NCBI RefSeq assembly: GCF_020165495.1
Contig: NZ_JAIUIE010000001.1
Coordinates: 1,116,001-1,180,000, forward strand
DNA: 64,000 bases
Origin: Mesorhizobium sp. BR1-1-16
GTDB lineage: Bacteria > Pseudomonadota > Alphaproteobacteria > Rhizobiales > Kaistiaceae
Direction: 5' to 3'
In this document: piece by piece, positions 26,792-55,597 of the stretch
Position numbering within the stretch: the stretch's first letter is position 1
How the letters are laid out: every line of letters begins with the position of its first letter
The notes under the pieces: model-generated
What the model saw: only the letters and a program-made list of their open reading frames with translations
Told to the model about the DNA's origin: nothing
The model's database searches: none
Program-made: the position numbers and the translations under genes

Positions 26792-28138
26792 TCAGAGTGC
26801 GGTCAGGAAAGCGCGGGCGGCGGCGCCATGCTCATGCCGCAGCCTCGCAAGATCCACGCCGACCGGCGCGCTGTCGATCACGCGCCAGTTGCCGCCGACC
26901 ATGACACGGTCGGCCGTGTGGGCGCCGCAGAGGACGAGCGCGGCGATAGGATCGCCAGCACCCGAAAAGCGCAGTTCGTCGAGCGTGAATAGCGCAAGAT
27001 CAGCCTCCATGCCCACCGCGATCCGGCCGATATCGGACCGGCCGATGCAGGCGGCCGAGCCTTCGGTGGCCCAGCGGAGTGCGTCGAGATGGGTCACCGT
27101 CGCCGCATCGTAGCGCAGCCGGCCGATCATCAGGGCGTGGCGCACCGCCTCCATCATGTTGGAGCTGTCATTCGAGGCCGAGCCGTCGACGCCAAGCCCG
27201 ACGATGGCGCCGGCCGCTTCCAGTTCCTTGGTCCGGCAGATGCCGGAGGCGAGCACCATGTTCGATGTCGGGCAATGGCAGATGCCGACGCGGTGGCGGC
27301 CGAGCCGGGCAACCTCCGCGTCATCGAAATGGATGCCATGCGCCAGCCAGGCGTGGTCGTTCAGCCAGCCGACCTCCTCAAGATAATCGAGCGGCCGCAT
27401 GCCGAAGCGCGAGAGGCAGAAATCGTTCTCGTCCTCGGTCTCGCCGAGATGGGTATGCAGGCGGCAATCGTGCTTCTCGGCGAGCTCCGCCGCGGCGCAC
27501 ATCATTTCGCGGGTGACGTTGAAGGGCGCGCAGGGCGCGAGCGCGACCGTCGAATAGGCGCCGGGGCGGCGGTCGTGATAGCGGCCGATGACGCGCTCGC
27601 AATCGGCCAGCACGACATCGTCGTCCTGCATCAGACGCTCGTCGGCGATACCGCCCTTGGTCATGCCGAGATTGATCGCACCCCGCGTCAGCGCAACGCG
27701 CATGCCGAGCTTCGCAGCTTCCTCGACCTCGATGTCGACCGCATCCGGCATGTCGGCCGGGAAGACGAAGAGATGGTCGGATGCGGTCGTGCAGCCCGAA
27801 AGCAGCAGTTCCGTCAGTGCGAGGCGCGTCGCGAGGCGGAAGCTGTCGCGGTCGAGATGATCGCCCCAAAGCGGATAGAGCGCCTTGAGCCAGGGAAACA
27901 GCTCCCTGTTGATGGCGGCCGGATGGGCGCGCGTCAGCGTCTGGAAGAAGTGATGATGCGTGTTGACGAGGCCGGGTAGCACGACATGGCGGCTGGCATC
28001 GAACACGTCGTCATGCTGCGGATCGGGATCATCGCGGCCCACCAGCGCAACGATCCGGCTTCCATCGACGACGATGCCGCGTTCGGCGCCATCAGTGAGG
28101 ATAGCGATCGGGTGCTTGATCCAGAGACGCTCGCTCAT
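26792..28138 (-). CDS. Amidohydrolase, 8-oxoguanine deaminase-like
   Basis: Zinc-dependent deaminase of the TRZ/ATZ amidohydrolase superfamily, 448 aa. The segment LPGLVNTHHHFFQTLTRAHP followed by INRELFPWLKALYPLW is very close to characterised 8-oxoguanine deaminases, which convert 8-oxoguanine to uric acid; later metal and substrate residues are in HTHLGETEDE, AHGIHFDD and GLGVDGSASNDSSNM. ATG 28138 overlaps the aldehyde dehydrogenase stop. The neighbouring ABC importer may bring in the purine-like substrate. An isoform acting on another aminopurine or aminopyrimidine is possible. Confidence 0.85.
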   Translation of the reverse strand: MSERLWIKHPIAILTDGAERGIVVDGSRIVALVGRDDPDPQHDDVFDASRHVVLPGLVNTHHHFFQTLTRAHPAAINRELFPWLKALYPLWGDHLDRDSFRLATRLALTELLLSGCTTASDHLFVFPADMPDAVDIEVEEAAKLGMRVALTRGAINLGMTKGGIADERLMQDDDVVLADCERVIGRYHDRRPGAYSTVALAPCAPFNVTREMMCAAAELAEKHDCRLHTHLGETEDENDFCLSRFGMRPLDYLEEVGWLNDHAWLAHGIHFDDAEVARLGRHRVGICHCPTSNMVLASGICRTKELEAAGAIVGLGVDGSASNDSSNMMEAVRHALMIGRLRYDAATVTHLDALRWATEGSAACIGRSDIGRIAVGMEADLALFTLDELRFSGAGDPIAALVLCGAHTADRVMVGGNWRVIDSAPVGVDLARLRHEHGAAARAFLTAL

Positions 28139-29574
28139 CGTTCCGCCTCCGCGTCCCAACCCAGCACGGTTTTCACCTCGAGAAACTCGCGCATGCCGTG
28201 ATCGCCGAGCTCGCGACCGTTGCCGGATTGCTTGTAGCCGCCGAAGGGCGCCTCGAAATCGAACCAGGGATTGTTGATGAAGACGCGACCGGCGCGGATG
28301 CGGCGGGCCGTGGCGCGGGCATGGTCTTCGTCGCTCGAATAGACATAGCCGGCAAGGCCATAGACGCTGTCATTGGCGATCCGCACCGCCTCGTCCTCGT
28401 CCTGATAGGTGAGGATCGAAAGAACGGGCCCGAAGATCTCCTGCCGCGCGATCGTCATGTCGGATGTCACGTCGGCGAAGATCGTCGGGCGCACGAAATA
28501 ACCGCGATTGAGATCCTGCGGGCGTCCGGGTCCGCCCTCGACGAGGCGTGCGCCCTCGGCGATGCCGGCCTCGATCATCCCCTGCACCTTGGCGAACTGG
28601 GCGCTTCCGGCGACGGGCCCCATGGTGGTTTCGGCGCGCGTCGGATCGCCGACGATCATGGTTGCAGCCACCGTACGGGCGCGGTCGATGACCTCGTTCA
28701 GCTGCGAGGCATGAACGAGCATGCGCGTCGGGGCGATGCAGGACTGGCCTGAATTGATGAAGCAGCGCTTGACGCCATCAGTGACCGCGAGATCGAGATC
28801 GGCGTCTGGCAGCACGATATTGGCCGATTTGCCGCCAAGCTCCTGATGCACGCGCTTCACCGTGTTGGCCGCGGCCTTTGCGACGGCGATGCCGGCGCGG
28901 GTCGAGCCGGTGAAGGAGACCATGTCGACATCAGGATGGGCCGAAATCGCAGCGCCGACGACAGGTCCCGTGCCATTGACGAGGTTGAAGACTCCGGGCG
29001 GCACGCCTGCTTCATGCATCACTTCGGCGAGGATGAGGGCCGAAAGCGGCGAAAGCTCGGATGGCTTCAGTACCACGGTGCAACCCGCAGCGAGGGCCGG
29101 AGCGAGCTTGGTGACGATCTGGTTCAACGGCCAGTTCCAGGGCGTGATCAGCCCGCAGACGCCGATCGGCTCATGCGTGATCAGCGATTGTCCATGCGGC
29201 ACGTCGAAGGCGAAGGTGCGCAGCACTTCTGCCGCGCTTTCGAAATAGATGATGCTCGACGCCGTCTGCAGCTCCCAGGAGAGCCATTTCGGCGAGCCCA
29301 TTTCTGCCATGACAGCTGCGGCCAGATCCTCTCGGCGAGCCGTGAATGCCGCGACGATGCGGGCGAACAGCGCCAGCCGTTCTTCCCGGCTTGTCGCCGC
29401 AAAGGCAGGGAAGGCGCGCCTTGCGCTTGCGACCGCGCGATCGACATCGGCCGCGTTGCCGAGTCCGATCGTTGCGATCGTTTCTTCCGTGGCCGGGTTG
29501 ATGACGGGCGCCCGTTCGCTTGAGAGCGGAGCGACGAAGGCGCCGTCGATATAAAAGCTGGTGGTCGCGGCCAC
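28135..29574 (-). CDS. Aldehyde dehydrogenase (NAD(P)-dependent)
   Basis: Soluble dehydrogenase of about 479 aa that oxidises an aldehyde to an acid. Key parts are ITPWNWPLNQIVTKLAPALAAG, VSFTGSTRAGIAV (cofactor site), catalytic Glu in QELGGKSANIV, catalytic Cys in FINSGQSCIAPTRM and EIFGPVLSILTYQDEDE. I prefer GTG 29574 because it is preceded by a purine-rich AGAAAGAAG and begins right at the conserved FYIDGAFV strand; ATG 29616 would overlap the upstream gene by 29 nt. It follows the deacetylase and aminotransferase, fitting oxidation of an aminoaldehyde. Confidence 0.92.
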   Translation of the reverse strand: MAATTSFYIDGAFVAPLSSERAPVINPATEETIATIGLGNAADVDRAVASARRAFPAFAATSREERLALFARIVAAFTARREDLAAAVMAEMGSPKWLSWELQTASSIIYFESAAEVLRTFAFDVPHGQSLITHEPIGVCGLITPWNWPLNQIVTKLAPALAAGCTVVLKPSELSPLSALILAEVMHEAGVPPGVFNLVNGTGPVVGAAISAHPDVDMVSFTGSTRAGIAVAKAAANTVKRVHQELGGKSANIVLPDADLDLAVTDGVKRCFINSGQSCIAPTRMLVHASQLNEVIDRARTVAATMIVGDPTRAETTMGPVAGSAQFAKVQGMIEAGIAEGARLVEGGPGRPQDLNRGYFVRPTIFADVTSDMTIARQEIFGPVLSILTYQDEDEAVRIANDSVYGLAGYVYSSDEDHARATARRIRAGRVFINNPWFDFEAPFGGYKQSGNGRELGDHGMREFLEVKTVLGWDAEAER

Positions 29575-29587
29575 GGCGTCTTCTTTC

Positions 29588-30709
29588 TCAGTGGCCCGCA
29601 AGCCGCGCCTCGACACTGCGGATCGCGGCGTCCTGATGCGGCTGCAGGTCTTGGCCGGTCATGCCGGCGATGATTGGCTCGAAGGGGTCTTCGACGCTGC
29701 CCTTGAGGCCGGACAGTGTCTCTATGATGGCCAGGCCAAGGAACGGAACCGAGGGCCGGTGATAGCCGCCCTCATGGGTCAGCAAAAGACGCCCGTCGCA
29801 ATAATCGTCTGCAACGTCCATGACACGCCGCGTCATCGCGGCGAACGCGCTGCCGCCGAGCATCATGCGCCCCTGCGGATCATAGGCGCCAGCATCGAGG
29901 CCCGACGCGATGATGATCATGTCCGGCGCGAAGGCCCTCAGCCTCGGCAGGATGACGCGGTCCATGGCGGCGAGATAGGCGCCGCTGCCGGAGCCGGGCG
30001 GCAGCGGCACGTTGAGATTGAACCCGGCGCCCGGTCCCGCGCCAAACTCGTCGATCAGTCCCGACCGTGGCGGATAGCAATTGTCCTGGTGGATTGAGAT
30101 CGTCAGGACGCTCGGATCGGTCCAGAAGATCGATTGCGCGCCGTTCCCGTGATGGACGTCCCAGTCGAGGATCGCGACGCGTCTGAGGCCATGCGCCAGC
30201 TGCGCGTGGCGCGCAGCGAGGGCGCCGTGATTGAAGATGCAGAAGCCGAAGCCACGGGCCGCTTCGGCATGGTGGCCGGGCGGCCGCAACAGCGCATAGG
30301 CATTGGCGACGCGGCCCTCGACGATCGCGTCGACGGCTTCGAGGATGCCTCCCGCTGCCAGGGCAGCGATCTCGTAGCCACCGGGCCCGAAGGGTGTCAC
30401 GCCGACTGGATCGCCGAGGGCCGCGTCGCCGCCATCGGCATCGCTCATCGCCTGCAGCCGCGCGATATAGTCGGCATGGTGAACGCGGCGCAGTTCTTCC
30501 TCTCGCGCCGGCCGCGGCTTGATGAGATGCAACTGCTCGGTCAGTCCCGCGACATCCAACAGGTTCTTGATCCGCCGCTTGCCTGCTGCGCTTTCTGACG
30601 GCTCGTCGGGCTCGATCACGCCCCGGCCGGCTTGCATGAAGCCGGCCAGCGCATGCGTATCGTGCCACATCAGCAGCTCATGCCAGACGAGGCCGGTCGG
30701 CTTGGTCAT
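29588..30709 (-). CDS. Class II histone deacetylase-like / acetylpolyamine amidohydrolase
   Basis: Zinc amidohydrolase of 373 aa of the arginase/deacetylase fold. Motifs are HHADYIARLQ, RPPGHHAEAARGFGFCIFN (tandem catalytic His), ILDWDVHHGNGAQSIF (Zn Asp and His), SIHQDNCYP, IIIASGLDAGAYDPQG (second Zn Asp) and THEGGYH. Bacterial relatives remove acetyl groups from polyamines or amino-side-chain compounds. Overlap with the aminotransferase (ATGA) and the following aldehyde dehydrogenase gives a deacetylate-transaminate-oxidise order, consistent with acetylated diamine catabolism. Confidence 0.9.
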   Translation of the reverse strand: MTKPTGLVWHELLMWHDTHALAGFMQAGRGVIEPDEPSESAAGKRRIKNLLDVAGLTEQLHLIKPRPAREEELRRVHHADYIARLQAMSDADGGDAALGDPVGVTPFGPGGYEIAALAAGGILEAVDAIVEGRVANAYALLRPPGHHAEAARGFGFCIFNHGALAARHAQLAHGLRRVAILDWDVHHGNGAQSIFWTDPSVLTISIHQDNCYPPRSGLIDEFGAGPGAGFNLNVPLPPGSGSGAYLAAMDRVILPRLRAFAPDMIIIASGLDAGAYDPQGRMMLGGSAFAAMTRRVMDVADDYCDGRLLLTHEGGYHRPSVPFLGLAIIETLSGLKGSVEDPFEPIIAGMTGQDLQPHQDAAIRSVEARLAGH

Positions 30710-32085
30710 GCCGCCACGCCGAAATGCTTGGCGGTTGCGTCGAGTGCTTCGCGGGCGATGTCGAAGATCGTGTCGAACTGCTCGATCGTTGTGACGAGCG
30801 GCGGCATGAGGCTCATGGTGTCGCCATTGGCCCGGAAGGCTAGGCCGCGCTTCAGGCCCTCAGCGGCGCAGAAATCGCCAATATGCGCCTCATATGGGAA
30901 TGCTTCGCGCGTCGCCTTGTTCTGCACGATCTCCAGCCCGCCCATCAGGCCGACCGAACGGACGTCGCCGATCAACGGATGTTCGATGAACGCATCGAGC
31001 TTCGTCTTGAAATAGGGCGCCAGCGTCGCGCCGGCATTCTCCACCAGCTTCTCCTCGTCGAGGATGCGGATGTTTTCCAGCGCAACGGCACAGCAGGTCG
31101 GATGGCCGGAATAAGTGTAGCCATGCGCCCACTCGCCGCCCTTGTCGATGAGGAGATCAGCGATGCGGTCAGAGATCACGGTAGCCGAGAGCGGCAGGTA
31201 GCCAGAGGTGATTGCCTTGCCGAGCTGCAGGATATCAGGCTCGATCCCATAGCGGCGATGCCCGAACCAGTGGCCGGTCCGGCCGAAGCCCATCACGACC
31301 TCGTCGAGGATCAGCAGAACGTCGTATTTCTTGCAGATGCGCTGGATCTCGGGCCAGTAGGTCTCGGGCGGGCAAAGCGCGCCGCCGGCGCTCTGGGCCG
31401 GCTCGGAGATGAAGGCCGCCACGTTGTCGGGGCCGAGTTCGAGGATCTTGTCCTCAAGCCAGCTTGCGGCGAGCACGCCGAACTCGGCCGGGTCCATGCC
31501 GAAGCCGTTGCGATACTGATAGGCGGTCTTGATATGGGTGACGCTCGGCATCGGGATATCGCCGCCAGCACCGTACATTGGCGGAATGCCGGAAAGGCTC
31601 GCCGCCATATGCGTCGAGCCGTGATAGGCGAGCTCGCGCCCGATGATCATCCGTTTCTGTGGCTGGCCGGCGAGGTCCCAATAATGGCGAGTGAGGCGGA
31701 TCGCCGTCTCGTTGGCCTCGGAGCCGGATGACTGGAAGAAGACGTGGTTGAGGCTGTCAGGCAGCATCGAGGTCAGCTTCTCGGCGAGCAGAACCGCCGA
31801 GCGGTGCGTCGTCTTGAAGAAGGACTGGCAGTATGAAAGCTCGAGCATCTGCTCGGCCGCCACCTGCACCAGTTCGCGCCGGCCATAGCCGATATTGACA
31901 TTGCCGAGACCCGAGAGCCCGTCGATGATCCGCGTGCCCTCGGTATCCCAGACATAGATGCCCTCGCCACGCACGGCGACGCGTGCGCCGCCCTGCCGGA
32001 GGCCAGCATGGTCCGTGAAAGGGTGCAGATAATGGGCGCGGTCCAGCACCTGCCAGCCCTGCGTGTCCATTTCCCGGTAGGCCAT
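30706..32085 (-). CDS. Class III aminotransferase (PLP-dependent, omega-amine type)
   Basis: Fold-type I transaminase of 459 aa. It shows the N-terminal HYLHPFTDH, GEGIYVWDTEGTRIIDGLSGLGNVNIGYGR, LILDEVVMGFGRTGHWFG and the PLP lysine in LGKAITSGYLPLSATV. This matches SpuC/putrescine-pyruvate and related omega-aminotransferases. It is the first gene of a four- to six-gene run, 105 nt after the AraC-type regulator gene; that gap may hold its promoter but I see no clear element. Confidence 0.93.
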   Translation of the reverse strand: MAYREMDTQGWQVLDRAHYLHPFTDHAGLRQGGARVAVRGEGIYVWDTEGTRIIDGLSGLGNVNIGYGRRELVQVAAEQMLELSYCQSFFKTTHRSAVLLAEKLTSMLPDSLNHVFFQSSGSEANETAIRLTRHYWDLAGQPQKRMIIGRELAYHGSTHMAASLSGIPPMYGAGGDIPMPSVTHIKTAYQYRNGFGMDPAEFGVLAASWLEDKILELGPDNVAAFISEPAQSAGGALCPPETYWPEIQRICKKYDVLLILDEVVMGFGRTGHWFGHRRYGIEPDILQLGKAITSGYLPLSATVISDRIADLLIDKGGEWAHGYTYSGHPTCCAVALENIRILDEEKLVENAGATLAPYFKTKLDAFIEHPLIGDVRSVGLMGGLEIVQNKATREAFPYEAHIGDFCAAEGLKRGLAFRANGDTMSLMPPLVTTIEQFDTIFDIAREALDATAKHFGVAA

Positions 32086-32190: not shown

Positions 32191-33156
32191 TCAGTGCGTC
32201 GAGGTTGCGCGAAAGGCGCCCGGTGCGACGCCGAATTGGCGCCGGAAGGCCCGGCTGAAATGCGAGAAGTCCTTGAAGCCGCGGCGAAGAGCGATGGTGT
32301 TGATCGGGAGGCCGCGCATCAGCGGATCGGCCAGCTCGCGGCGGATCCGGTCAAGCCGCTGGGCCTGCACGAAGCGGGCAACCTGCTGTTCCTCACCCTC
32401 GAAGAGTTCATAGAGCCGCCGCAGCGAGATGCCATGCGCCGCCGCGATATCGCGCGGCGACAGGTCGGCATTGTCGAGATGAGCGAGAATATAGGCCTTG
32501 ATCCGGTCGAGCTGCGAAACGCGGGAGACCGAAATGGCTTCGCCGCTTCCGACATCCATCAATGCCGTTGCCGTCAGTTCCAGCACATGCTGCTCCAGCC
32601 GGCTCGACAGCGTGGCGGGAATGTCGTTTGGCCGCTCGCAGAGCCCGCTGGCGAGATCGTAGATGAAGCGGCCTGGAATGCGGTCGGCAGCAAGATGCAG
32701 CGCCACCAGCCGGTCGACGGAGGGCACGCGTTCGCGCAGTGCCGCGCGCGGCACCTTCAGTGAAACCTGCCGGTATGGCCCGCGGAAGCGCATCTGGTAG
32801 GGCCGGCGGCTGTCATAGAGAACCATCGATCGCGGGCCGGTCACGATATCGCGGCCATCCTGCGAGAAGGCGCATTCGCCGTCGATCTGGATCGTCAGTT
32901 CATACCAGCGATCATCGCCCGAATGGATCTCGCGCTCGCTGCGCACGACATCGAGACTGGTCGAGACGATATCGGCGATCGTGACCTCTCCGAGGCTGAG
33001 CCAGGCGACATGGCCATAGAAACCCTCGAAGCCGTCGCGGCGAAGCTGCGTCGGCGGGAAGAGGCTGTTGGTCGCCTCCCGCCAGTAGTCGAGCCTCTCG
33101 GCAGCCGGAACGGCGTCGGTCGAGAGATCGCGCCAGCCGAAGCCCGAAACCGTCAT
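32191..33156 (-). CDS. AraC family transcriptional regulator
   Basis: DNA-binding regulator of 321 aa. The N-terminal two-thirds is an AraC-binding-like sensor domain (WREATNSLFPPTQLRR, ELTIQIDGECAFSQDGRD, MVLYDSRRPYQMRF). The C-terminal about 100 aa has two helix-turn-helices: DLSPRDIAAAHGISLRRLYELF and NTIALRRGFKDFSHFSRAFR. AAGGAG upstream of ATG 33156 sets the start. It lies between the phthalate-decarboxylase-like gene and the aminotransferase gene on the same strand, so it could control either side. Confidence 0.9.
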   Translation of the reverse strand: MTVSGFGWRDLSTDAVPAAERLDYWREATNSLFPPTQLRRDGFEGFYGHVAWLSLGEVTIADIVSTSLDVVRSEREIHSGDDRWYELTIQIDGECAFSQDGRDIVTGPRSMVLYDSRRPYQMRFRGPYRQVSLKVPRAALRERVPSVDRLVALHLAADRIPGRFIYDLASGLCERPNDIPATLSSRLEQHVLELTATALMDVGSGEAISVSRVSQLDRIKAYILAHLDNADLSPRDIAAAHGISLRRLYELFEGEEQQVARFVQAQRLDRIRRELADPLMRGLPINTIALRRGFKDFSHFSRAFRRQFGVAPGAFRATSTH

Positions 33157-33169
33157 CGCATGCTCCTTC

Positions 33170-34144
33170 TCAGGTGGCCAGAATATCCGCGCCATCGAAC
33201 AGGTCTTCCGGCCTGAAAGCGGTCGAGATCAGCCCGTCCTCGTTCAGATAACGGATGATGACCTCCAGCATCGCACGGTTCTTGGCAAACCCAACCGGCC
33301 AATAGTCAGTCCCGAGCTCGCGTTCGGCTTCAAGCAGGGATTCGAGCGCCCAGGGCAGCATGGTCGACAGCGCCACCTGATCGAACAGCTTCGCCCGTGC
33401 CACGGTCTGCGCTTCCGCAAAAGCATCGAACAGAGCCTTGGTGAGGCCAGGGTTGGCCTCCGCGATCGGCCGCTTGACCGCGAGGATGTGCATCGGCGGA
33501 AAGATGCCGGTCTTGCGGAAATAATCGAGTTCGGCCGTCTTCGGGTCCTCGAACAGCCGCCCTACGCTGGCCGACGGCCATGTGCTTGGCGCGCGAGCCG
33601 TGTAGAGCGCGTCGATCTCGCCGCTCGCCAGCATCTGAGCGAGCGGCTTGTCGGTTCGCTCAACCTTGAATTGCGCGGGATAGACCTGCGGATGCTCGTC
33701 GCCGGCGCGCGGCGCTTCCAGCCCGCCGGTAACGTAGATTGGCGCGGTACGGTCGAGGCCGTAGTGTTCTTCGAAGAAGCCACGCTGCCAGACGGCGGCG
33801 GCCATGTCGAACACCATCAGGCCGATCCGCTTGCCGGCCATGTCGGCCGGCTTCTCGATGCCGCTCGCCTTGTTGATGAACACGCTCGAAAAGCGGAAAT
33901 GGCGCGAGGGAAAGATCGGCACCGCGAGATAGGGCCGATCTGGCCGCTCCAGCGTGCGCAGATAGGTGGCGAGCGGAAATTCACAGGCGTCAAAATGATG
34001 CGAGCCGAGCTGCTTGTTGAACAGCGCCTGCACGCCCATCAGCGTCACGTCGGGATCGACCCCGGCAATCGTGACCTCGCGATTGGCGATAGGCCGGGTA
34101 CGGTCGCTGTCGCTGGCGCCGATGGTGAGTTTCAGGAGCGTCAT
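33170..34144 (-). CDS. 4,5-dihydroxyphthalate decarboxylase (Pht5)-like protein, leaderless PBP-II fold
   Basis: 324 aa, no signal peptide. It has VTLMGVQALFNKQLGSHHFDACEFPLATYL-type sequence in short pieces such as FDACEFPLATYL, PIFPSRHFRFSSVFIN, GKRIGLMVFDMAAAVWQRG and LASGEIDALYTARAPSTW, the layout of Pht5 and related cytoplasmic periplasmic-binding-protein-fold enzymes. Pht5 removes a carboxyl group from a dihydroxylated aromatic acid. It begins 2 nt after the ArcS-motif gene, implying one operon with it and the flavin monooxygenase. The actual substrate may be a heteroaromatic acid. Confidence 0.8.
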   Translation of the reverse strand: MTLLKLTIGASDSDRTRPIANREVTIAGVDPDVTLMGVQALFNKQLGSHHFDACEFPLATYLRTLERPDRPYLAVPIFPSRHFRFSSVFINKASGIEKPADMAGKRIGLMVFDMAAAVWQRGFFEEHYGLDRTAPIYVTGGLEAPRAGDEHPQVYPAQFKVERTDKPLAQMLASGEIDALYTARAPSTWPSASVGRLFEDPKTAELDYFRKTGIFPPMHILAVKRPIAEANPGLTKALFDAFAEAQTVARAKLFDQVALSTMLPWALESLLEAERELGTDYWPVGFAKNRAMLEVIIRYLNEDGLISTAFRPEDLFDGADILAT

Positions 34145-34146
34145 TC

Positions 34147-35172
34147 TCAATGGTCCTTGTAGTCGCGTAGCCGCGCGACGAGCACGTCGAGCAATTCGGG
34201 AAGCGCGAGCGGCGTCGCGTTCGCGCCGCCGCGGGCGTAAATGCCGGTCGCCTGAACCGTGTCGATACCGAGCCGGGCCGACAGACGGTCGATGGCGTCC
34301 TTGCACTGGTCGAGCGTCGGCAGGCAGACGATGGCGGCGCCTCCGCCCAGATGATCGTTGGCGCCGATGAGGTCGACGCGGCCGGAGGCGACCTTGCGGG
34401 TCGCGGGCACATTGTTGGCGGCGCGTTCTCCTTTGCCGATGACAAAGCTCCGATGCGTCAGGCCCGGCGCGACCCAGGAGACGACGTCGTCATAGTGATG
34501 CCCGATGCGCCCGACGACGACCGCAACCGCCTCGGCCATGGCGTTATGCATCAGGGCATAGTGTCGGCGCTCCTCATCGCCCCATTTCCAGCGCGTCTTG
34601 GAAATGGCAACAGCCGTCGAATCCGGGCGCCAGGGCGACACGGCATTGCCGCGCTTTTCGAAGAGTCCGGGGTCGTCATAAGCCGTGGCCGGCGAGGCGC
34701 CGCCGGGATAGTCGATGATGTGTTCATAGGGCACGACGCCCATCGGCTCGGAGATCACCATCCGGTGGATCAGCGTGCCGGCATCGTCGATCAGCGGCGA
34801 GAGATTGAGGACGTCCTGCGAGAATTCCGGTTCGAGCCGCGCCTGCAGCTCCTGCGGCAGGGCATGCCGTGCCGTCGGGCGGAAGCCGCTATCGGCCAGA
34901 CGCTGGTTGATCGCCTTGTGCTCGGATGAAAAGGGATAGGGCTTGGTCTTCGTGCAGGGCATGAAGAGCAGCACCTTGCGCTTCGCAGCCGGCAGCTCCG
35001 GTTCGTAGTGGTCTCTGATAAAGTCGAGCCAGGCTGCGATGCGCGGATGGGTCAGACTGTCGACATTGTCCTGCGGGCTGTAGAGACAGAGCGTCGGATC
35101 GAGGACGAACGGGCTTTCGATCTTCTCGGCGGATTCAGTGATGCGCTGGGCGCGGTCGGTGACGGTGACCAT
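34147..35172 (-). CDS. Protein with archaeosine-synthase (ArcS/DUF5591) core motif
   Basis: 341 aa, soluble, of unsettled function. Residues 72-85 read PCTKTKPYPFSSEH, exactly the pattern PC-x3-KPY-x2-S-x2-H described as diagnostic for the core domain of archaeal ArcS, which modifies the nitrile of preQ0 in tRNA. It is preceded by DHYEPELPAAKRKVLLF, as in that domain, and followed by VISEPMGVVPYEHI. There is no PUA or TGT domain. An ArcS-type function in a catabolic operon of an alphaproteobacterium is unexpected. Neighbours are a flavin monooxygenase upstream and a decarboxylase-like protein downstream (2-nt gap). Confidence 0.65.
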   Translation of the reverse strand: MVTVTDRAQRITESAEKIESPFVLDPTLCLYSPQDNVDSLTHPRIAAWLDFIRDHYEPELPAAKRKVLLFMPCTKTKPYPFSSEHKAINQRLADSGFRPTARHALPQELQARLEPEFSQDVLNLSPLIDDAGTLIHRMVISEPMGVVPYEHIIDYPGGASPATAYDDPGLFEKRGNAVSPWRPDSTAVAISKTRWKWGDEERRHYALMHNAMAEAVAVVVGRIGHHYDDVVSWVAPGLTHRSFVIGKGERAANNVPATRKVASGRVDLIGANDHLGGGAAIVCLPTLDQCKDAIDRLSARLGIDTVQATGIYARGGANATPLALPELLDVLVARLRDYKDH

Positions 35173-35190: not shown

Positions 35191-36639
35191 TTAGGCGACC
35201 TTCGCAGCGCGGGCGGCGCGCCGCGCTTCGAAGGCGGAGATGTCGAGTTCGACCTCGTCATACTGATCGAGACCAGCGATGAAGGCTTCTGCATCGTCGC
35301 GGAAGAGCTGGCGCGTGATGCCAAAGGCGATGCGTTCGGTGGAGAATTTGAGCTGAGAGATGCCGGCAGTCGCGCCGAGGCTCATCATGGCGCCAAAGGA
35401 ATGGCAGTAGAGCCGCGCCAGAAAGGGCGCTGTGCCCGGTTCCTTCTCAGTGAACTGGAACGCGCCCGAGAGATAGGGATAGGCCCCGAGCGTCGGGCTT
35501 TCGTCGCCTTCCGGCGGTTGATGGCGATCCGACCACCGGGCGATCTTGTCTGCAAAGCGCGCAAGCTCAGGCCGCAGGCTCAAATCGATGACGAAGCCCG
35601 TGCCGACGATCAGAAAATCGTAGTCGAACACGCCGCCGGGTGTGCCGAGGCGAACGCTCCGGTCATCAAACGAAACGCTCTCAAGCGGGCTGCCGAGATG
35701 GAGGTCGAAGGCGTCGAAACGGGCGCAGCGCTCGAACGTATCCTGCGGCGGCGGCTGGTTGAGCGCGAAATAACGGCGCATGAAGCGCCATTTCAGGGTG
35801 TCGTCGAGGTCGGCGAAATGGCGGATATAGCCAGTGGTTTCGATGTAGCGGTTCGGGTTCACCTTCGGCAGCGACTTCCGCCGCGCGAAGAGGTCGACGG
35901 CGCGCGCCCCGCCTTCGAGCGCCATCGCGGCGTTATCGAAGGCCGAGGCCCCGGCGCCGATGACGGCAACGCGCTGGCCGTTCAGCGCGGCAAAATCGAT
36001 CGGTTCTGACGTGTGGGCATAGCGCTCCCTGGGTAAGGCATCCGCGATCATGGCAGGCACCTGCCATTGCCCCGCGCCCTCGATGCCGGTTGCGAGCACG
36101 ACATGCCGCGCCAGCAGCCGCTCCGGCTTGCCGGCGATCACGGAGTGGACGGCGAAGAGGTCGTCCGCCAGCGGCTCGATATCGGTCACCGCGGCGTCGT
36201 TGGTGACGTCGATCCCGGCCATGGCCTGCAACCAGCGAAGATAGTCGTGCCAATGCTGGCGCGGGATCTTGCCGATGCCGGCCCAGGCCTCTGCCCCGAA
36301 TTTCGCCTCATACCAGGCGCGGATGGAGAGGCTTGGCAGGCCGAGTTCCGGACCCGAAACATGCTTCGGCGTCCGCAGCGTCTGCATGCGGGCATAGGTA
36401 ATCCATGGCCCGGCCTCGCCGGCCGGGCTCCGGTCCAGCACGCGGATATTGGTGACGCGCTCGCGGAGCAGCCGGAAAGCGAGGGAGAGGGCGTTCTGGC
36501 CGCCGCCAACGATGAGCACGTCCAGTACCGCCTCGCCATCCCGCGAACGCGGCGCCACCCATTCACGCGCCGGATAGGCGACGCAATCGAGCTCGAAGCG
36601 GACTCGCTTCGCCAAGTCGTCGAGGCAGTTCATCGTCAT
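35191..36639 (-). CDS. FAD/NAD(P)-dependent monooxygenase-like oxidoreductase
   Basis: About 482 aa. The FAD site is VLDVLIVGGGQNALSLAF; a second Rossmann site VAVIGAGASAFDNAAMALE binds NAD(P)H; between them is VVLATGIEGAGQWQVP, and FLIVGTGFVIDLSLRPEL follows. This resembles flavin-containing or N-hydroxylating monooxygenases (FMO/SidA class) more than a disulfide reductase. The likely start is ATG 36639, with ATG 36633 an alternative. It heads the operon with the ArcS-motif and Pht5-like genes. The 223-bp region upstream, up to the CobW gene, shows no other gene. Confidence 0.85.
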   Translation of the reverse strand: MTMNCLDDLAKRVRFELDCVAYPAREWVAPRSRDGEAVLDVLIVGGGQNALSLAFRLLRERVTNIRVLDRSPAGEAGPWITYARMQTLRTPKHVSGPELGLPSLSIRAWYEAKFGAEAWAGIGKIPRQHWHDYLRWLQAMAGIDVTNDAAVTDIEPLADDLFAVHSVIAGKPERLLARHVVLATGIEGAGQWQVPAMIADALPRERYAHTSEPIDFAALNGQRVAVIGAGASAFDNAAMALEGGARAVDLFARRKSLPKVNPNRYIETTGYIRHFADLDDTLKWRFMRRYFALNQPPPQDTFERCARFDAFDLHLGSPLESVSFDDRSVRLGTPGGVFDYDFLIVGTGFVIDLSLRPELARFADKIARWSDRHQPPEGDESPTLGAYPYLSGAFQFTEKEPGTAPFLARLYCHSFGAMMSLGATAGISQLKFSTERIAFGITRQLFRDDAEAFIAGLDQYDEVELDISAFEARRAARAAKVA

Positions 36640-36871
36640 GCGACGCACTCCAGACTCGTCCGCACCATGGGCTTGCGCCAGACGGACGACTTCGCGGCGC
36701 TGCGCGCCGGGCTATTTGTTCGGGAATGCCCGATCCGGTTTTCCGGTCGATCGGACGAAACTCTTCCAAGCAATCCGCATACCAACCGATGGCGGCCAGA
36801 TACCGGACGGGGCTATCGGTCTGCTGCCGAAACGCTGTGCATCGGCTGCCCATGGATCAATCGACCGACCC

Positions 36872-37864
36872 TCACTGAGCGATATCGACGCCTTTGTCAG
36901 CCGTCACATGACGATGAAACGAGGCGACCAGCCGTTCGTGATCGAGGCCGCGCGCGATGACCACCAGCGCGGTTCGAGGTGCGTCGGGGTCGGCCGGTAC
37001 ATGCTCGGGCTTATGCACGACATGTCGCACCGACTGGACCACCACGCCGATGGACCCGTCGGCCGTCTCGATACCGACAGATCCCTTGACCCGCAGGATC
37101 GTGTCGCCATGCCGATGCAGCAGCAGCGACAGCCAGGCGGCGAAGCGCGCCCAGGCGACAGGCGCGTCTGTTGTCAGCACGGATGCGGCGATCCGATCAT
37201 GGATCGGCGTTGCCGCCGTCGCCGTGAACGAGCGGGCGGCTCGGGGCGGCAGGGCCTGATCCGGCAGGAGTGCGCGATCGAACGGATCAAAACCTCCGGC
37301 CGCGAAAGTGCGGGCGATCGGGTTGATCGCGCCGATACGGTCGGCGAGGCGCTCAGCCGCTCCGGCCTCGGCAAGCTCGGCCTTGGTCAAGAGGACGATA
37401 TCGGCGGCGATGAGTTGCGCCATGGCCTCGGCGGATTCGTCGAGCGTCGCTGCGCCGTGGCAAAGATCGATCAGTGTCACGACGCGGCCGAGTCGGACGC
37501 GAGCCTTGAGGATGGGATCGGTCGCAAGCGTCGCGATCAGCGGAGTCGGATCGGCGATGCCGGACGTCTCGATCAGGATGCGGCGGAACGACGGCGTCCT
37601 CCCGTCCGCCTGCCCCTCGATCAGCGCGACGATGGCGGCGCGCAGATTGCCGTCGGTGACGCAGCAGAGGCAGCGGTCGCCGATGACGGAGGCGGAGGCC
37701 CCGGAAAGCCCGATCAACTGGCCATCGACGGGCAGGTCTGCGAATTCGTTGACGAGGATCGCGGTCTCGCGAAGCGCACGCCCCTCGACCAGCCGCCGGA
37801 TCATGCTTGTCTTCCCGCTGCCGAGAAAACCGGTGAGAATATCGACTGCGATGGGTTCGTTCAT
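36872..37864 (-). CDS. CobW/P47K family GTPase (COG0523 metallochaperone)
   Basis: 330 aa. Walker A GFLGSGKT is at residues 12-19, the metal-binding CLCC motif at 65-68, and ILIETSGIADP and LLTKAELAE (guanine-binding-type loop) follow. The C-terminal CobW_C domain contains GDTILRVKGSVG and VVQSVRHVVHKP. Such GTPases deliver Zn or other metals to client enzymes. Several metal-dependent hydrolases lie nearby and could be clients. It overlaps the small upstream gene by four bases. Confidence 0.92.
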   Translation of the reverse strand: MNEPIAVDILTGFLGSGKTSMIRRLVEGRALRETAILVNEFADLPVDGQLIGLSGASASVIGDRCLCCVTDGNLRAAIVALIEGQADGRTPSFRRILIETSGIADPTPLIATLATDPILKARVRLGRVVTLIDLCHGAATLDESAEAMAQLIAADIVLLTKAELAEAGAAERLADRIGAINPIARTFAAGGFDPFDRALLPDQALPPRAARSFTATAATPIHDRIAASVLTTDAPVAWARFAAWLSLLLHRHGDTILRVKGSVGIETADGSIGVVVQSVRHVVHKPEHVPADPDAPRTALVVIARGLDHERLVASFHRHVTADKGVDIAQ

Positions 37865-38663: not shown

Positions 38664-39560
38664 CTACGGCTTCGGGCCAGGCGTTCCCTTGGGATGGCGC
38701 ACAAGGAAGTCCTTGGCGATATCCTCGAAGGTGACGAACTTGACGCCCGGGTGCTTCGTCATATGGCCGAACAGGCGCTCATGCATCATGAGAACCTGCG
38801 GGCGGCCGGAAACGTCTGGGTGAATGGTGATGGTGAACACGGCATAGTCGTATTCGCGATAGACCCAGTCAAACTGGTCGCGCCAAAGCTCTTCGATATC
38901 GCGCGGATTGACGAAGCCGTGGCTGTTCGGCGCGGCCTTCATGAACATCATCGGCGGCAGGTCGTCGATATACCAGGACGCCGGAATTTCGACGAGCGGC
39001 GTCTCCGTGCCGCGGTTCATAGGCGTCATCCAGGTCTCGGCCGGCTTGCCGTAGTCGATCTTCGACCAGCTTTCCCCAGTACGGGCATAGTAGGGGAAGA
39101 AGTCGTTATGCATCAGCGAGTGGTCGTAGATGATGCCGCGATCGATCAGCATCTCGATCGTCGTGTTGGAGAACTCCCACCACGGCGCGACATAGCCTGA
39201 AGGTTTGCGACCCTGCAGCTTCTCGATGAGCGCGATCGACTTGTCGAGAACGGCGGCCTCCTGGTCGCGCGTCATCATCAGCGGGTTCTCATGGCTGTAG
39301 CCATGCATGCCGATTTCGTGCCCGGCCGCCGCGACCGCCGCCATCTCGTCGGGGAAGGTCTCGATCGAATGGCCGGGAATGAACCAGGTTGTCTTGATGC
39401 CGAAGCGATCGAACAGCTTCAAAAGACGCGGCGTGCCCACTTCACCGGCAAAGACGCCGCGAGAAATGTCGCAGGGACTGTCCTCGCCGCCATAGGAGCC
39501 CAGCCAGCCGGCGACAGCGTCGACATCGATACCGTAGGCGACGAAGATTTCCTTGGCCAT
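38664..39560 (-). CDS. Polysaccharide-deacetylase-fold hydrolase (cyclic imidase / HpPgdA-like)
   Basis: 298 aa, no signal peptide, so probably a cytoplasmic enzyme rather than a wall deacetylase. Motifs include [54 protein letters not shown] (metal His pair) and [11 protein letters not shown]. This subgroup includes Helicobacter PgdA and, as I recall, the cyclic imide hydrolase of Pseudomonas putida. The gene ends the HpaB operon and follows the racemase-superfamily gene by 29 nt. In this context hydrolysis of a cyclic imide or amide ring is more likely than sugar deacetylation (inference). Confidence 0.82.
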
Positions 39561-39589
39561 CACTTCCCTCTTTCAGTCATTTTCCATCT

Positions 39590-40327
39590 TCAGGCCGAAG
39601 CCGCAGCTTCCGATGCAAGGAGCTTGCCCCAGCCGGCCACGGGGGCTGAAATTCCTGCAAGCCTGCAGGCCTCCCAGAATGTGACGGCGATGGAATCGAC
39701 GATGGGAATGCCAAGTTCGGCTTCCATTTCCTCGACGAGTTCAGTGGCGTTGAAGTTGGTGCACACGACGGCAATGCAGTCCGGTCCGCTTGCGGCCGCC
39801 GAACAAAGCACCCTGCGGATCTCGTCGGCAGGCGCGGCACCGATGTCGACATTCTCGCGGATGCCCAGTGAGGCCGAGCCGGTGACTGGAAAGCCCTGAC
39901 GCGTATATTCGTTTGCGATGTCCCGGGTGATGTCCTCGGTATAGGGAACGGCGAGCGCTACGCTCTTCCAGCCGAAGGTTCGAAACGCGCGGTAGAAGGC
40001 GAGCGTCGAGGTCGAGGCGGGCAGGCCCGTCTCGCGGGTGATCGCCTCGCAGAGCGCGATATCGTTCTCGAGCCCGCGCCAGCTCGCCGAGGTGCCATTC
40101 CAGATGATGCCGGTCAGCGGCGCGTCGGCCAGCAGCCGGGCGCCGGTGAGCATCGTCTCGAGCCGGAACTGGGCGTCCGAGGCGGCCTCGAGCGCCAGAT
40201 GGGTGACGCGGATGCGCGAGAAATGATGCGCGAGCTGCCCATCGAGCGCGCGGTTCATCGCATAGGTAAGCGGCTCGAGGTGCGTGTTGGAGGAGGGCGT
40301 TATATGGCCGATGCGCGCGATGCTCAT
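39590..40327 (-). CDS. Asp/Glu racemase superfamily protein (maleate isomerase / arylmalonate decarboxylase-like)
   Basis: 245 aa. The N-terminus GHITPSSNTHLEP is typical of the maleate isomerase/AMDase group. At the first catalytic position there is WNGTSAS (Gly78-Thr79-Ser80), not Cys, while the second has VCTNFNAT (Cys189). Arylmalonate decarboxylase likewise has Gly74 with Thr75-Ser76 and Cys188, whereas racemases and isomerases carry two Cys. A cofactor-free decarboxylase-like reaction is therefore plausible. The gene begins 5 nt after the flavin reductase stop. Confidence 0.82.
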   Translation of the reverse strand: MSIARIGHITPSSNTHLEPLTYAMNRALDGQLAHHFSRIRVTHLALEAASDAQFRLETMLTGARLLADAPLTGIIWNGTSASWRGLENDIALCEAITRETGLPASTSTLAFYRAFRTFGWKSVALAVPYTEDITRDIANEYTRQGFPVTGSASLGIRENVDIGAAPADEIRRVLCSAAASGPDCIAVVCTNFNATELVEEMEAELGIPIVDSIAVTFWEACRLAGISAPVAGWGKLLASEAAASA

Positions 40328-40332: not shown

Positions 40333-40827
40333 TCAGCTCTTTTCGAAGGCGTGAAAGCCGGCCGAGAGGCGGCCGTTGAAGAAGATCAGCGGGTCGCCCT
40401 CGCGGGCGGACAGAGCGACGACTTCGCCGACCATGATGCGGTGATCGCCGCCATCATGGATCGCTCGCGTCTCGCATTCGAGATGAACAAGAGCGCCGGG
40501 AAGCAGCGGCAGGCCACGCTCCGAAATCGCCATCGGTTCGCCGTCGAACGCCTCCAGCGTGTGCTTCGAGAAATGGCGCGCCTCGTCCATCTGCTCGCTC
40601 GAGAGCACGTTGACGGCAAAACGGCCGGCGCCCTCGAAAATCGCGCGCGAGCGGGCATTCTCCCGGATGCTCCAAAGCACCAGCGGTGGCTGAAGGGAGA
40701 CGGAAGCAAAGGAGTTGATCGTCATCCCTGCAAAGACGTCGCCGTGATGCGTCGTGACGACGGCGACTCCGGTGGGAAAGAACGAACAGGCGCGGCGGAA
40801 GTCCGTCGGGTCGACAGGGCTGGTCAT
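40333..40827 (-). CDS. Flavin reductase (HpaC-like), partner of the HpaB-type monooxygenase
   Basis: 164 aa, FMN-binding split-barrel domain. It contains RRACSFFPTGVAVVTTHHGD, GMTINSFASVSLQPPLVLWSI, FAVNVLSSEQ and a C-terminal GRLSAGFHAF. Such proteins use NAD(P)H to supply free reduced flavin. ATG 40827 overlaps the amidohydrolase stop; an open frame continuing upstream is shadow. The HpaB-type oxygenase in the same operon is the natural partner. Confidence 0.9.
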   Translation of the reverse strand: MTSPVDPTDFRRACSFFPTGVAVVTTHHGDVFAGMTINSFASVSLQPPLVLWSIRENARSRAIFEGAGRFAVNVLSSEQMDEARHFSKHTLEAFDGEPMAISERGLPLLPGALVHLECETRAIHDGGDHRIMVGEVVALSAREGDPLIFFNGRLSAGFHAFEKS

Positions 40828-42329
40828 GACTGGATTTCCCCTTCGACGGACAGGAAACGATTGATGGGCAGCGGCTTGTTGCGCTGGCTGCGCGCGAAGG
40901 CGACGACATGGGGTTCGAGCCGCCCCGCGATCGCGCGCGCTTCGGCGAGGCTGTGGCCAAGCCGGGCGACGGCTTCGGTCGCACGGGTGCGCAAGCTGGC
41001 CAGATCGACCCGTGTGAGTTGACGGTCCCGCAGCGCAAAACGGCCATCGACCATGACATCGCTGATCGCACCGGAATCGGCCGCCGTTACAACCTGGTTG
41101 AGCGGGTCGACAAGCGGCAGGAAATCGATGTGGCCAAGGTCGAAGAAGGCGAGATCGGCCGATGCCCCGACCTCGATCCGGCCGGAGCGCGGCAGGCCGA
41201 GCAGATCGGCGCCGCCTTCCGTGGCGAGGCGGAGCGTTTCCGCGGCGCCAAGCCAGCTCTCGCGCGGCGCGTGGAACATGCGCGAGGCATAAGAGGCGAG
41301 GCGGATCGCTTGCGTCATCGAGAGCGCGTCCGAGGAATTGGCGCCGTCCGTCGCGAGGCCGACACCGATGCCTCGTTCGAGCATGGGCCGCACATGCGCG
41401 ACGCCGGCCCCAAGGCGGAAATTCGAGGCCGGGATATGAGCGACGCGGCAACCATGGCTCGCCAGCAGGTCGAGATCGGCGCCGTCGAGCCAGACCGCGT
41501 GTGCCGCGATGAAATGCGGCCCGAGCACGCCGCGCTCCGCGAGATAGGCCACGGGCGATTGGCCCCAGAGATCACGCGCGACAGTGGCCTGCAGTCTTGA
41601 TTCCGCGACATGCATATGAAGTGGCAGGCCATGCCGTTCGGCCAGGTCAGCATGTCGGAGCAGAAAGCCTTCCGAGCAGTGATGCGGAATGGTCGGTGCG
41701 AGTGCCAATGAAATGCCGGGCGGCAGGTTTGCCCGTTCGGCGATGATGGCCTCGACCGCTTCGAGCGTCCCCTCGCCATTGCCGAGCGCGAAGCGGCCGA
41801 CCGTCTCGCGAAGGTCCGGCGGGAGAGACTCAGTCAGGCCTGGAATGGCCGTAAACAGCGTCTTGTCGGCGACCATCGGCGCGAGCGCGGCCTTAATGCC
41901 AGAGTCAGCATAGGCCCGCGCTACTGCCATGAAGCCCGCCACGGTCGGGCGTGGGAATTCGTAGACAAGGTCGAAACAGGCGGTGCAGCCTTTCGACAGC
42001 ATGTCCACGGCGCCGATCAGCGTCGAGAGATACATCGTCTCCGCGTCGCGCGCGCCGCCCATCCAGGGGCCATTGGTGAGTGAGACTTCAAGCGTCCAGC
42101 GGTCGGCGACGCCCTTGACGAGGTTGGCATGGCCGTGGGTATGGCTGTTGACGAAGCCCGGTAGGATCAGCCTGTCCGTGGCATCGTGAACCAAGCAATC
42201 GACGGCCTCGATGTGGCCGGGCGGCTCGATCGCGGTGATACGGCCGTCATCGATCAAAAGGTCGCGCGCCGTCGCCGTTCCCGTTGCAAGATCGGCGACG
42301 AGCCCGCCTGTGATGACCATCATTGTCAT
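40824..42329 (-). CDS. Amidohydrolase family protein (cytosine deaminase / atrazine hydrolase-like)
   Basis: 501 aa. Metal-site segments are LPGFVNSHTHGHANLVKG, LHMHVAES, FIAAHAVWLD and GLATDGANSSDALSM, placing it in the TRZ/ATZ group of deaminases and hydrolytic dechlorinases acting on N-heterocycles. The start MTMMVITGG at 42329 overlaps the preceding stop. Position between a PuuE-like hydrolase and a flavin reductase suggests it deaminates or hydrolyses a ring intermediate. The precise substrate is unknown. Confidence 0.88.
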   Translation of the reverse strand: MTMMVITGGLVADLATGTATARDLLIDDGRITAIEPPGHIEAVDCLVHDATDRLILPGFVNSHTHGHANLVKGVADRWTLEVSLTNGPWMGGARDAETMYLSTLIGAVDMLSKGCTACFDLVYEFPRPTVAGFMAVARAYADSGIKAALAPMVADKTLFTAIPGLTESLPPDLRETVGRFALGNGEGTLEAVEAIIAERANLPPGISLALAPTIPHHCSEGFLLRHADLAERHGLPLHMHVAESRLQATVARDLWGQSPVAYLAERGVLGPHFIAAHAVWLDGADLDLLASHGCRVAHIPASNFRLGAGVAHVRPMLERGIGVGLATDGANSSDALSMTQAIRLASYASRMFHAPRESWLGAAETLRLATEGGADLLGLPRSGRIEVGASADLAFFDLGHIDFLPLVDPLNQVVTAADSGAISDVMVDGRFALRDRQLTRVDLASLRTRATEAVARLGHSLAEARAIAGRLEPHVVAFARSQRNKPLPINRFLSVEGEIQS

Positions 42330-43246
42330 GACGTCGCCTCGGCCGGATGCGTGGCGATCCAGTGCCGGGCGACCTCTGAGCGACCGGCACACCAAACATC
42401 GGCATGGCTGGCGACCAGATCAAGAAAGCGCTGCATCGCCTCGAAGCGTGAGGGCTGGCCGGATATGCGGCTGTGCAGGCTCACCGTCATCATGCGCGGG
42501 CGCCGCGCGCTTTCGGCATGCAGCACGCGGAAGGCGCTCGCGAGGTGATTGTAGAAATCTTCGGCGGTGCCGAGCTTGGCTGTCGCAAGGCGATTGTCGT
42601 TATGTGTGAAGGAGTGCGGAACGACGAGGTGCGGCGCGCCGCCGAGCGTCACCCAATAGGGCAGGTCGTCCGCATAGCTGTCTGAATCATAGAGAAACCC
42701 GCCATGCTCGACGAGCAGCGCGCGCGTCGCCTCGCTGGACGAATAGCGGCTCTGCCAGCCGAGCGGCGGCCGTCCGATCAGGTCGACGATGCCGCTATAG
42801 GCGGCGGCGATCGCGGTGCGCTCCTCGGCTTCATCCATGCGGTAATGGCGGACGAAGCGATCGCCATGGCAGCAAAGATCGAGCCCGCCCTCCCGGATCG
42901 CGGCAGCAATCTCGCTGTTGCGGCGGAGCGCAGCCGCGCAGGCATTGATTGTGAGCGGCACGCCACGGGCTGCGAAGAGGTCCGTGAGCCGCCAGAACCC
43001 GACGCGCGATCCATATTCGAACAGCGTCTCGGCCACGAAGTCGCGGCGCCCGCCGCCGACTTCGCCCGGGATGGCGTCGGTCAGCGCGGCCTCGCTGGCC
43101 TCGTCGCCGTCTGGGATCGATGGCTCGGCTCCCTCTTCGACATTCAGCACGACGACGAGCGCAAGCTTCGCGCCGCCGGGCCAGTGTGGATCGGGCGGCG
43201 TTCGGCCATAGCCGACGAAGTCACGGATGCCGTCTGCGATGGGCAT
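42326..43246 (-). CDS. Polysaccharide-deacetylase-fold hydrolase (PuuE allantoinase-like)
   Basis: 306 aa, no signal peptide. The N-terminus FVGYGRTPPDPHWPGGAKLA then VVLNVEEGAEPSIPDGDEASE and YGSRVGFWRL is the pattern of metal-independent PuuE-type allantoinases. Later it has LDLCCHGDRFVRHYRMDE, where the equivalent of the deacetylase metal site sits. These enzymes open the hydantoin ring of allantoin. ATGA overlaps exist on both sides (amidase upstream, amidohydrolase downstream). The ligand may be another cyclic ureide or imide. Confidence 0.85.
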   Translation of the reverse strand: MPIADGIRDFVGYGRTPPDPHWPGGAKLALVVVLNVEEGAEPSIPDGDEASEAALTDAIPGEVGGGRRDFVAETLFEYGSRVGFWRLTDLFAARGVPLTINACAAALRRNSEIAAAIREGGLDLCCHGDRFVRHYRMDEAEERTAIAAAYSGIVDLIGRPPLGWQSRYSSSEATRALLVEHGGFLYDSDSYADDLPYWVTLGGAPHLVVPHSFTHNDNRLATAKLGTAEDFYNHLASAFRVLHAESARRPRMMTVSLHSRISGQPSRFEAMQRFLDLVASHADVWCAGRSEVARHWIATHPAEATS

Positions 43247-44457
43247 CACACGCCAGCCTTGCGTGTGAGGTCGCCCATGGTTTCGGCAAAAGCGATCAAC
43301 CGTTTCTCGCTGCGCGGTCCGCCGATCAGCGACAGGCCGATCGGGCAGCCCTCGAATGTCGTGGCGGGTATGGCGAGCTGTGGCAGTCGCGTCAGGCTGG
43401 CGACGGCTGTCAGCGCCAGCGTCTTTTCGCGGAAGGCGATCTGCGCTGATACGGGCGCATCGCGCAACGGCGGGAGGTCATGCACCGTCGGCAGGATGAT
43501 GATGCCGTCATCGCCGAGCAGGGCGAGGAGCCGGTCGGTCAAGGCCTCGCGGCGGGGCATTGCTGCGGCGACGGCCTCAGCCTTGACCGTTGCGGCGAGC
43601 GCAAACCGTTCGGCGACGGCCTGCGACAGCCGCCGGCCCGGCTCTGCCGCAAAGGCGCCGAGCGTCGCGTAGAGATCGTGCAGTTGCAGCGGACGGAACG
43701 TCTCTAGCCAGAACTGGACACCCTCCTCATAGAGCGTGATTTCGGTGGAGACGCCGAGCCCCTTCGCGATCGGCAGCAGCGCCGCGCCGATGCCATGCTC
43801 GGGGATATCGAAGGCATCGCGGGCAATCATCAGCCGAGGCGCCGCCGCAGGCTCAATGGTGCCGAAATAGCAGGCGCTGACCCGTTTCATCATGGCGATG
43901 TCGCGCGTCAACCAGCCGATGGTATCGAAGCTCGGCGCCATCGGCATCACGCCGGCGACAGAGACGCGACCATGCGTCGTGCGCAGCCCATAAAGGCCGC
44001 AGAAGCTCGCCGGTACGCGGATCGATCCGCCGGTGTCGGAGCCGAGCGCGAAATCGGCAAGCCCCGCCGCGACGGCCGAGGCAGAGCCGCTCGATGAGCC
44101 GCCAGGCACACGATCCGGCGCCGCCGGGTTGATCGGGATGCCGAAATGCGGGTTCATCCCGAACATGCCGCAGGCAAGTTCGTCGGTCGCGGTCTTGCCG
44201 GCCATGCGCGCGCCGGCCATCAGCGGCACCAGCACGGCCGGCGCCGTGGCGATTGCCGGTGGCGTATCGCGCAGACGGTCGGGATTGCCCCAGCCTGAGC
44301 GATAGCCGGCGACGTCGATGAGGTCCTTCACCGCAAAGTCGAGCCCAGCGAGCGGACCGTCGCTCGCAAGCTGAAGGCTGTCCCGGCCATGATCAACGAA
44401 TGCGAGATGCGCGATCATCTCCCGGGACGGCGTTTCCGCGAGGTCCATGACGCTCAT
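43246..44457 (-). CDS. Amidase (amidase-signature family)
   Basis: 403 aa. It has the Ser-cisSer-Lys machinery: Lys in DFAVKDLIDVAGY, cis-Ser in RVPGGSSSGSASAVAAGL and nucleophile Ser in GSDTGGSIRVPASFCGLYG. It is shorter than GatA and has no transamidosome genes nearby, so it is a catabolic amidase. It overlaps both the HpaB-like gene and the PuuE-like gene by four bases. In the proposed pathway it would hydrolyse a linear amide formed after ring opening (inference). Confidence 0.92.
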   Translation of the reverse strand: MSVMDLAETPSREMIAHLAFVDHGRDSLQLASDGPLAGLDFAVKDLIDVAGYRSGWGNPDRLRDTPPAIATAPAVLVPLMAGARMAGKTATDELACGMFGMNPHFGIPINPAAPDRVPGGSSSGSASAVAAGLADFALGSDTGGSIRVPASFCGLYGLRTTHGRVSVAGVMPMAPSFDTIGWLTRDIAMMKRVSACYFGTIEPAAAPRLMIARDAFDIPEHGIGAALLPIAKGLGVSTEITLYEEGVQFWLETFRPLQLHDLYATLGAFAAEPGRRLSQAVAERFALAATVKAEAVAAAMPRREALTDRLLALLGDDGIIILPTVHDLPPLRDAPVSAQIAFREKTLALTAVASLTRLPQLAIPATTFEGCPIGLSLIGGPRSEKRLIAFAETMGDLTRKAGV

Positions 44458-48520: not shown

Positions 48521-48524
48521 CGCC

Positions 48525-51304: not shown

Positions 51305-51389
51305 GATTATCCGTCACCGTGTGCAGGACCGCTTGAAACGGCCATTCGACCATAGGAAGCCGATTGTGCATCCAACCGGCCGATTCGGC

Positions 51390-52175: not shown

Positions 52176-52177
52176 CC

Positions 52178-54518: not shown

Positions 54519-54570
54519 GGCCGGCAGAACGAAGCCGCGGCGGCGTCTGATCGCGCCGCCGCGGCCGTGA

Positions 54571-55581: not shown

Positions 55582-55597
55582 GACGACCCTCCGTCTG

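Follow-up and report, generated by a model that had tools for sequence, protein, structure and literature searches.

A free-standing ArcS-core family protein in a conserved, probably catabolic operon of Alphaproteobacteria

In a 64,000-nucleotide stretch of the soil bacterium Mesorhizobium sp. BR1-1-16 (contig NZ_JAIUIE010000001.1, positions 1,116,001 to 1,180,000; hereafter the window), the minus-strand gene at 34147-35172 encodes a protein that is homologous to the core of ArcS, which in Archaea acts on the nitrile group of preQ0 carried by tRNA. The conserved residues of that core are retained, and the gene lies in an apparently catabolic operon that is itself conserved in other genomes. 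Judged by sequence, the protein represents a separate ArcS-core-domain family, distinct from ArcS proper. We tentatively propose, with a probability of roughly 0.35, that it is a free-standing ArcS-core enzyme performing one step in the breakdown of a heterocycle resembling guanine, the likeliest being a 7-deazaguanine of the preQ0, preQ1 or queuine type.

Homology to the ArcS core

Residues 72-85 of the 341-residue protein (PCTKTKPYPFSSEH) fit exactly the pattern PC-x3-KPY-x2-S-x2-H, a known mark of ArcS. The motif has a single occurrence in the window translated in all six frames and is present in all 15 rows of alignment A2. A second conserved block consists of ISEPMGVVPYE (140-150) plus AYDDP (164-168). 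A search of genome contigs returned 14 relatives at 66-92% identity, and a further one (71%) is carried by a Rhizobium plasmid; in alignment A1 (16 rows), 152 of 357 columns are invariant and the mean column identity is 76%. The open reading frame is thus considered a real gene, given its relatives, the invariant columns and the retention of the motif in every A2 row. Read as the plus strand in frame 1, the same interval is interrupted by stops.

In a Pfam scan, DUF5591 (PF17884, the ArcS core domain) matched at 31.9 bits (gathering cut-off 26), over profile positions 2-45 of 150 only. It was the sole domain at E≤1, with neither a TGT-like domain nor PUA detected; the exact motif and the free-standing nature of the protein had both been claimed in the first-pass annotation and are borne out. 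The NCBIfam ArcS equivalogs NF040592 and NF053620 scored 28.8 and 28.6 bits, respectively, below their cut-offs of 600 and 440. Because both cut-offs were failed and the TGT-like and PUA domains are missing, the protein was not classed as ArcS. The likeness nevertheless extends past the 14-residue motif, as found by profile-profile comparison with shuffles and by a match of the 341-residue protein to the fold of the ArcS core in PDB 2q07 (AF0587, deposited as a protein of unknown function), and so withstands the refutation proposed in the first-pass annotation. Compared with that core, the bacterial family is extended at both termini and carries two or more insertions, at about 99-134 and 173-198.

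Several results weigh against this homology. A HMMER search using only the profile of the bacterial family did not recover 2q07 or any other ArcS-core structure, Foldseek's own ranking listed nothing at E≤0.001, and the DUF5591 match is only 48 residues long. Such results would suit a motif that resembles ArcS by chance or convergence in an unrelated protein, an explanation that was rejected on the profile-profile comparison with shuffles and the 2q07 match, and to which we give hardly any weight. An ArcS-core profile, A3, did match 2q07 at E 3e-20, yet this is not counted as independent support, because six of its 10 rows are viral, phage or archaeal and the bacterial-only profile finds no such match. 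A phmmer search with the single protein gave no relevant match in the PDB. PHROGs yielded one match (E 0.025) to a family of unassigned function. The partner radical-SAM enzyme RaSEA was not seen among the neighbours scanned with Pfam or NCBIfam, no genome search having been aimed at it.

The operon and its distribution

The monooxygenase gene lies 18 bp upstream of the ArcS-like gene, and the decarboxylase-like gene begins (ATG at 34144) 2 bp past its stop (Table 1). In the comparison set of 15 other loci (L002-L015 and L023), whose fetched stretches end before many of the genes, a decarboxylase relative is next downstream in 14 and the FAD monooxygenase is directly upstream in 13 (L005 has a 42% relative elsewhere), so that the operon with these two partners, as first described, is both correct and conserved; L013 has neither. 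Among the same 15, the amidohydrolase was present in 14, the 8-oxoguanine-deaminase and allantoinase relatives in 12 each, the flavin reductase, aminotransferase and AraC regulator in 10 each, the amidase and aldehyde dehydrogenase in nine each, HpaB and the arylmalonate-decarboxylase-like gene in eight each, the histone-deacetylase-like gene in seven, the second deacetylase in six and CobW in five. Longer stretches from two more genomes (L057-L060; L061, very likely the genome of L002) harbour HpaB and the amidase as well. The shortest version, found at four Bradyrhizobium loci with sequence ending about 8 kb upstream, runs 8-oxoguanine-deaminase relative, HpaB, amidase, allantoinase relative, amidohydrolase, FAD monooxygenase, ArcS-like gene and decarboxylase relative, a set that reads as the core pathway.

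In L013, the ArcS-like gene lies apart from the operon. A gene of the same orientation, some 200 bp to its 5′ side, encodes a 197-residue protein of cytidine-deaminase fold (L013:7199-7792). The closest solved relatives of this protein are 7c3s and 2g84 (E 7e-7), followed by guanine deaminase 1wkq (E 1.6e-5); the 2g84 group is one of guanine deaminases. Since the operon has the 8-oxoguanine-deaminase relative and L013 this cytidine-deaminase-fold gene, a guanine-type deaminase, of differing fold, probably accompanies the ArcS-like gene in both contexts, the second being a single case with weak E-values.

The gene was found in 8 of 14 genomes of the window's genus and in 0 of 14 from the rest of the family, and in 7 of 397 genomes of an order sample at E≤1e-20, six of the seven being in that genus. 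In a class sample (n=190), both the full match and PF17884 were confined to the window's own genome; likewise, the A1 family profile and PF17884 each gave one of 398 Pseudomonadota genomes, again its own. Named hosts are Kaistia, Bosea (a metagenome-assembled genome), Parvibaculum, Bradyrhizobium, Ciceribacter, Martelella, Rhizobium and two less defined metagenome-assembled genomes, in agreement with the initial label 'alphaproteobacterial'. As the spread is patchy while the operon is conserved, horizontal transfer is suggested. Weak matches in seven other genomes of the 190 (E 2.9e-4 to 9.2e-4) were taken as chance. With both strands read, the long frame at six of these seven loci (L016-L019, L021 and L022) has a WGPG segment, accompanied in five of the six by ADEINRA; these frames presumably belong to MoxR-type AAA ATPases, an assignment not extended to L020.

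Table 1. Genes of the cluster in the window, with the best supporting models
Feature	Position	Strand	Basis
Inosine-uridine-type nucleoside hydrolase, far edge of cluster	19437..20396	minus	IU_nuc_hydro 294 bits
8-oxoguanine deaminase family amidohydrolase	26792..28159	minus	PRK08203 620 bits, cut-off 532
Aldehyde dehydrogenase family protein	28135..29616	minus	best model TIGR01804 434 bits, under cut-off 668.6
Histone-deacetylase-fold amidohydrolase	29588..30709	minus	Hist_deacetyl 288 bits
Class III aminotransferase	30706..32085	minus	NF005682 628 bits, cut-off 510
AraC-type regulator	32191..33195	minus	nearest model FeaR, under its cut-off
4,5-dihydroxyphthalate-decarboxylase-like	33170..34144	minus	PDB 9jp7 chain so named, E 2.5e-59
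ArcS-core (DUF5591) family protein, 341 residues	34147..35172	minus	ATG start
FAD/NAD(P) monooxygenase relative	35191..36648	minus	Lys_Orn_oxgnase 52.9 bits, Pyr_redox_3 51.4 bits
CobW-type GTPase	36872..37864	minus	cobW 122 bits
Second deacetylase-fold hydrolase	38664..39563	minus	Polysacc_deac_1 63.7 bits
Arylmalonate decarboxylase/EutA/Asp-Glu racemase-like	39590..40327	minus	Amdase 81.9 bits, cut-off 25.9
Flavin reductase (approximate start)	40333..40890	minus	FerA 144.5 bits, under cut-off 260
TRZ/ATZ amidohydrolase (longest open reading frame)	40824..42395	minus	Amidohydro_1 172 bits
PuuE/allantoinase-like deacetylase-fold hydrolase	42326..43249	minus	TIGR03212 323 bits, under cut-off 424.6
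Amidase	43246..44457	minus	PRK08310 432 bits, cut-off 391
HpaB-type oxygenase component (start chosen; longest open reading frame extends to 46070)	44454..45932	minus	HpaB_N 283 bits, HpaB 195 bits
ECF transporter: two ATPases, T component, S component	46097..49097	minus	S near CD3073 family, 127.9 bits, cut-off 180

The ECF transporter genes lie directly upstream of HpaB in the window. In L061, the T component, ATPases and S component are likewise upstream of HpaB; in L057, the T component and ATPases are, the S gene was not detected there, and a 63% S relative is found in L058. The nucleoside hydrolase at the far edge has an 89% identical copy in L058 and was not found in the 21 other fetched stretches searched, most of which are too short to reach it; L060 does reach and lacks the gene. 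Among solved structures, its best matches are mostly hydrolases of pyrimidine nucleosides. The enzyme fits a nucleoside substrate, yet it cuts both ways, recurring as it does only in L058. A second nucleoside-hydrolase-like gene, at about 58230-59150 (plus), showed up only as a 34.5% tblastn match to it. Beside the cluster, 50579-55641 (minus) harbours a GntR regulator, a class II aldolase-like gene and a second NMT1-type ABC transporter, a group retained in L057 and mostly in L061.

Proposed function and its alternatives

We infer the following substrate, chemistry and order of steps. The ArcS core would bind a guanine-like base, and Cys73, aided by Lys77, Tyr79, Ser82 and His85, would attack the electrophilic carbon of the 7-substituent (in preQ0, the nitrile). 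By analogy with QueF, which employs cysteine thioimidate chemistry, a thioimidate may form and then be taken over by an amine, ammonia or water to give an amide or amidine, which the operon amidase could hydrolyse. Decarboxylation by the dihydroxyphthalate-decarboxylase relative, deamination by the 8-oxoguanine-deaminase relative, hydroxylation by the FAD monooxygenase and HpaB, and ring opening by the allantoinase-like and TRZ/ATZ hydrolases might follow; the deaminase, monooxygenases and allantoinase-like hydrolases would then resemble a route of purine breakdown. The cyclopentenediol side chain could be processed, in the longer version seen in Kaistia, by the aminotransferase, the aldehyde dehydrogenase, an old-yellow-enzyme relative and an aldo/keto reductase. 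That the whole operon is dedicated to breaking down 7-deazaguanines (preQ0, preQ1 or queuine from tRNA or soil bacteria), with a repurposed ArcS core acting on the 7-substituent before the amidase, the decarboxylase and a purine-like ring opening, is possible but rather less likely than not. The idea that the histone-deacetylase-like enzyme hydrolyses a lysine adduct was set aside; its gene was not found in the fetched stretches of eight of the 15 loci.

With regard to queuosine, where the evidence points either way for the proposal, the window's own genome has adjacent QueA and TGT genes (G000, C1:882778-884933) and gave no QueF match. All 14 genomes of the genus gave matches to the QueC family, at 20.5-29.3 bits and in 12 of them above the curated cut-off, each match listed spanning only about 55-80 of 210 positions at one end; these are taken as other enzymes that share part of the domain. 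If so, the missing QueF match and the partial QueC matches would mean that the genus depends on imported preQ1, and the own genome looks like that of a preQ1 salvager.

The same ArcS-core chemistry, in which a cysteine attacks a nitrile, an amidine or an activated carbonyl, might instead serve another N-heterocycle, such as a plant or soil alkaloid of the pyridine, pyrimidine or pterin type, and we put the odds of this somewhat short of even. HpaB with its flavin reductase, the amidase, amidohydrolase, aldehyde dehydrogenase and dihydroxyphthalate-decarboxylase relative suit ring catabolism in general; the name or source of some hosts points to an association with plants (Bradyrhizobium; a Rhizobium from the Agave rhizosphere); and relatives of the FAD monooxygenase occur in 335 plasmid records, in other contexts where examined. 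Against such a substrate stand the guanine-type deaminases in both genomic contexts and the characterised relatives of the core known to us, which act on 7-deazaguanine. The neighbourhoods of HpaB and FAD monooxygenase relatives outside the operon, where examined, pointed to no clear substrate. Retention of the fold with a different reaction (hydrolysis, ring opening or glycosidic cleavage), or as a binding subunit in which the cysteine is not a nucleophile, appears improbable.

Relation to known ArcS cores

With ArcS (archaeosine synthase alpha subunit), the bacterial protein has in common the DUF5591 core and the motif, but it differs in domain content, in scores far under the ArcS cut-offs and in its catabolic-operon setting. 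The ArcS reaction described in Thermococcus is transfer of lysine to preQ0 nucleosides (PMC11298593). The operon partner in the 8-oxoguanine deaminase family ties the locus to the 8-oxoguanine deaminase/AtzB/N2,N2-dimethylguanine hydrolase group, which shares no homology with the ArcS-like protein and supplies context only.

The homologue of Vibrio phage nt-1, presumably VPFG_00169, is a single-domain ArcS core too, with the motif partly altered (CTTTRPYENSRKW). Free-standing single-domain cores of 185-187 residues also occur in Sulfolobus viruses STSV1 and STSV2 (DUF5591 at 73.9 and 71.6 bits, respectively); they share the SEPM-x-x-VP block with the bacterial family, their carriers being archaeal viruses in contrast to its bacterial hosts. 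We know of no catabolic operon for the STSV cores.

The novelty initially claimed holds in part. An ArcS homologue had already been reported in Vibrio phage nt-1, in a paper that also mentions bacterial and archaeal homologues in networks of several families, ArcS included (PMC6884629). In that phage, whose DNA contains 7-deazaguanine, the free-standing core is surrounded by genes of the preQ0 pathway; the STSV viruses have a free-standing core as well. An ArcS core in a catabolic operon, by contrast, was not found in the literature searched, which included DUF5591, CD3073, catabolism and pyridine degradation. If the proposal is true, the bacterial version in a conserved degradation operon would represent an ArcS core used for small-molecule catabolism. 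Should the substrate be a 7-deazaguanine, this would be the first known breakdown pathway for queuine-type bases, none being known to us or returned by the literature search, and would give studies of ArcS chemistry a compact, soluble enzyme to work with.

Further free-standing cores were seen in archaeal or metagenomic viral contigs (L044/L049 for STSV1, L038/L050 for STSV2, L040 and L041). The RefSeq records of the two STSV viruses label a feature beneath the match 'queuine tRNA-ribosyltransferase'. Synechococcus phages PP438428 and OM868081 match the STSV1 core weakly (E 4e-4, 32%), and a Haladaptatus plasmid (L051) encodes, at 1522-3486 (+) and 4200-6221 (-), neighbouring proteins annotated as tRNA-guanine transglycosylases with a C-terminal ArcS-like core.
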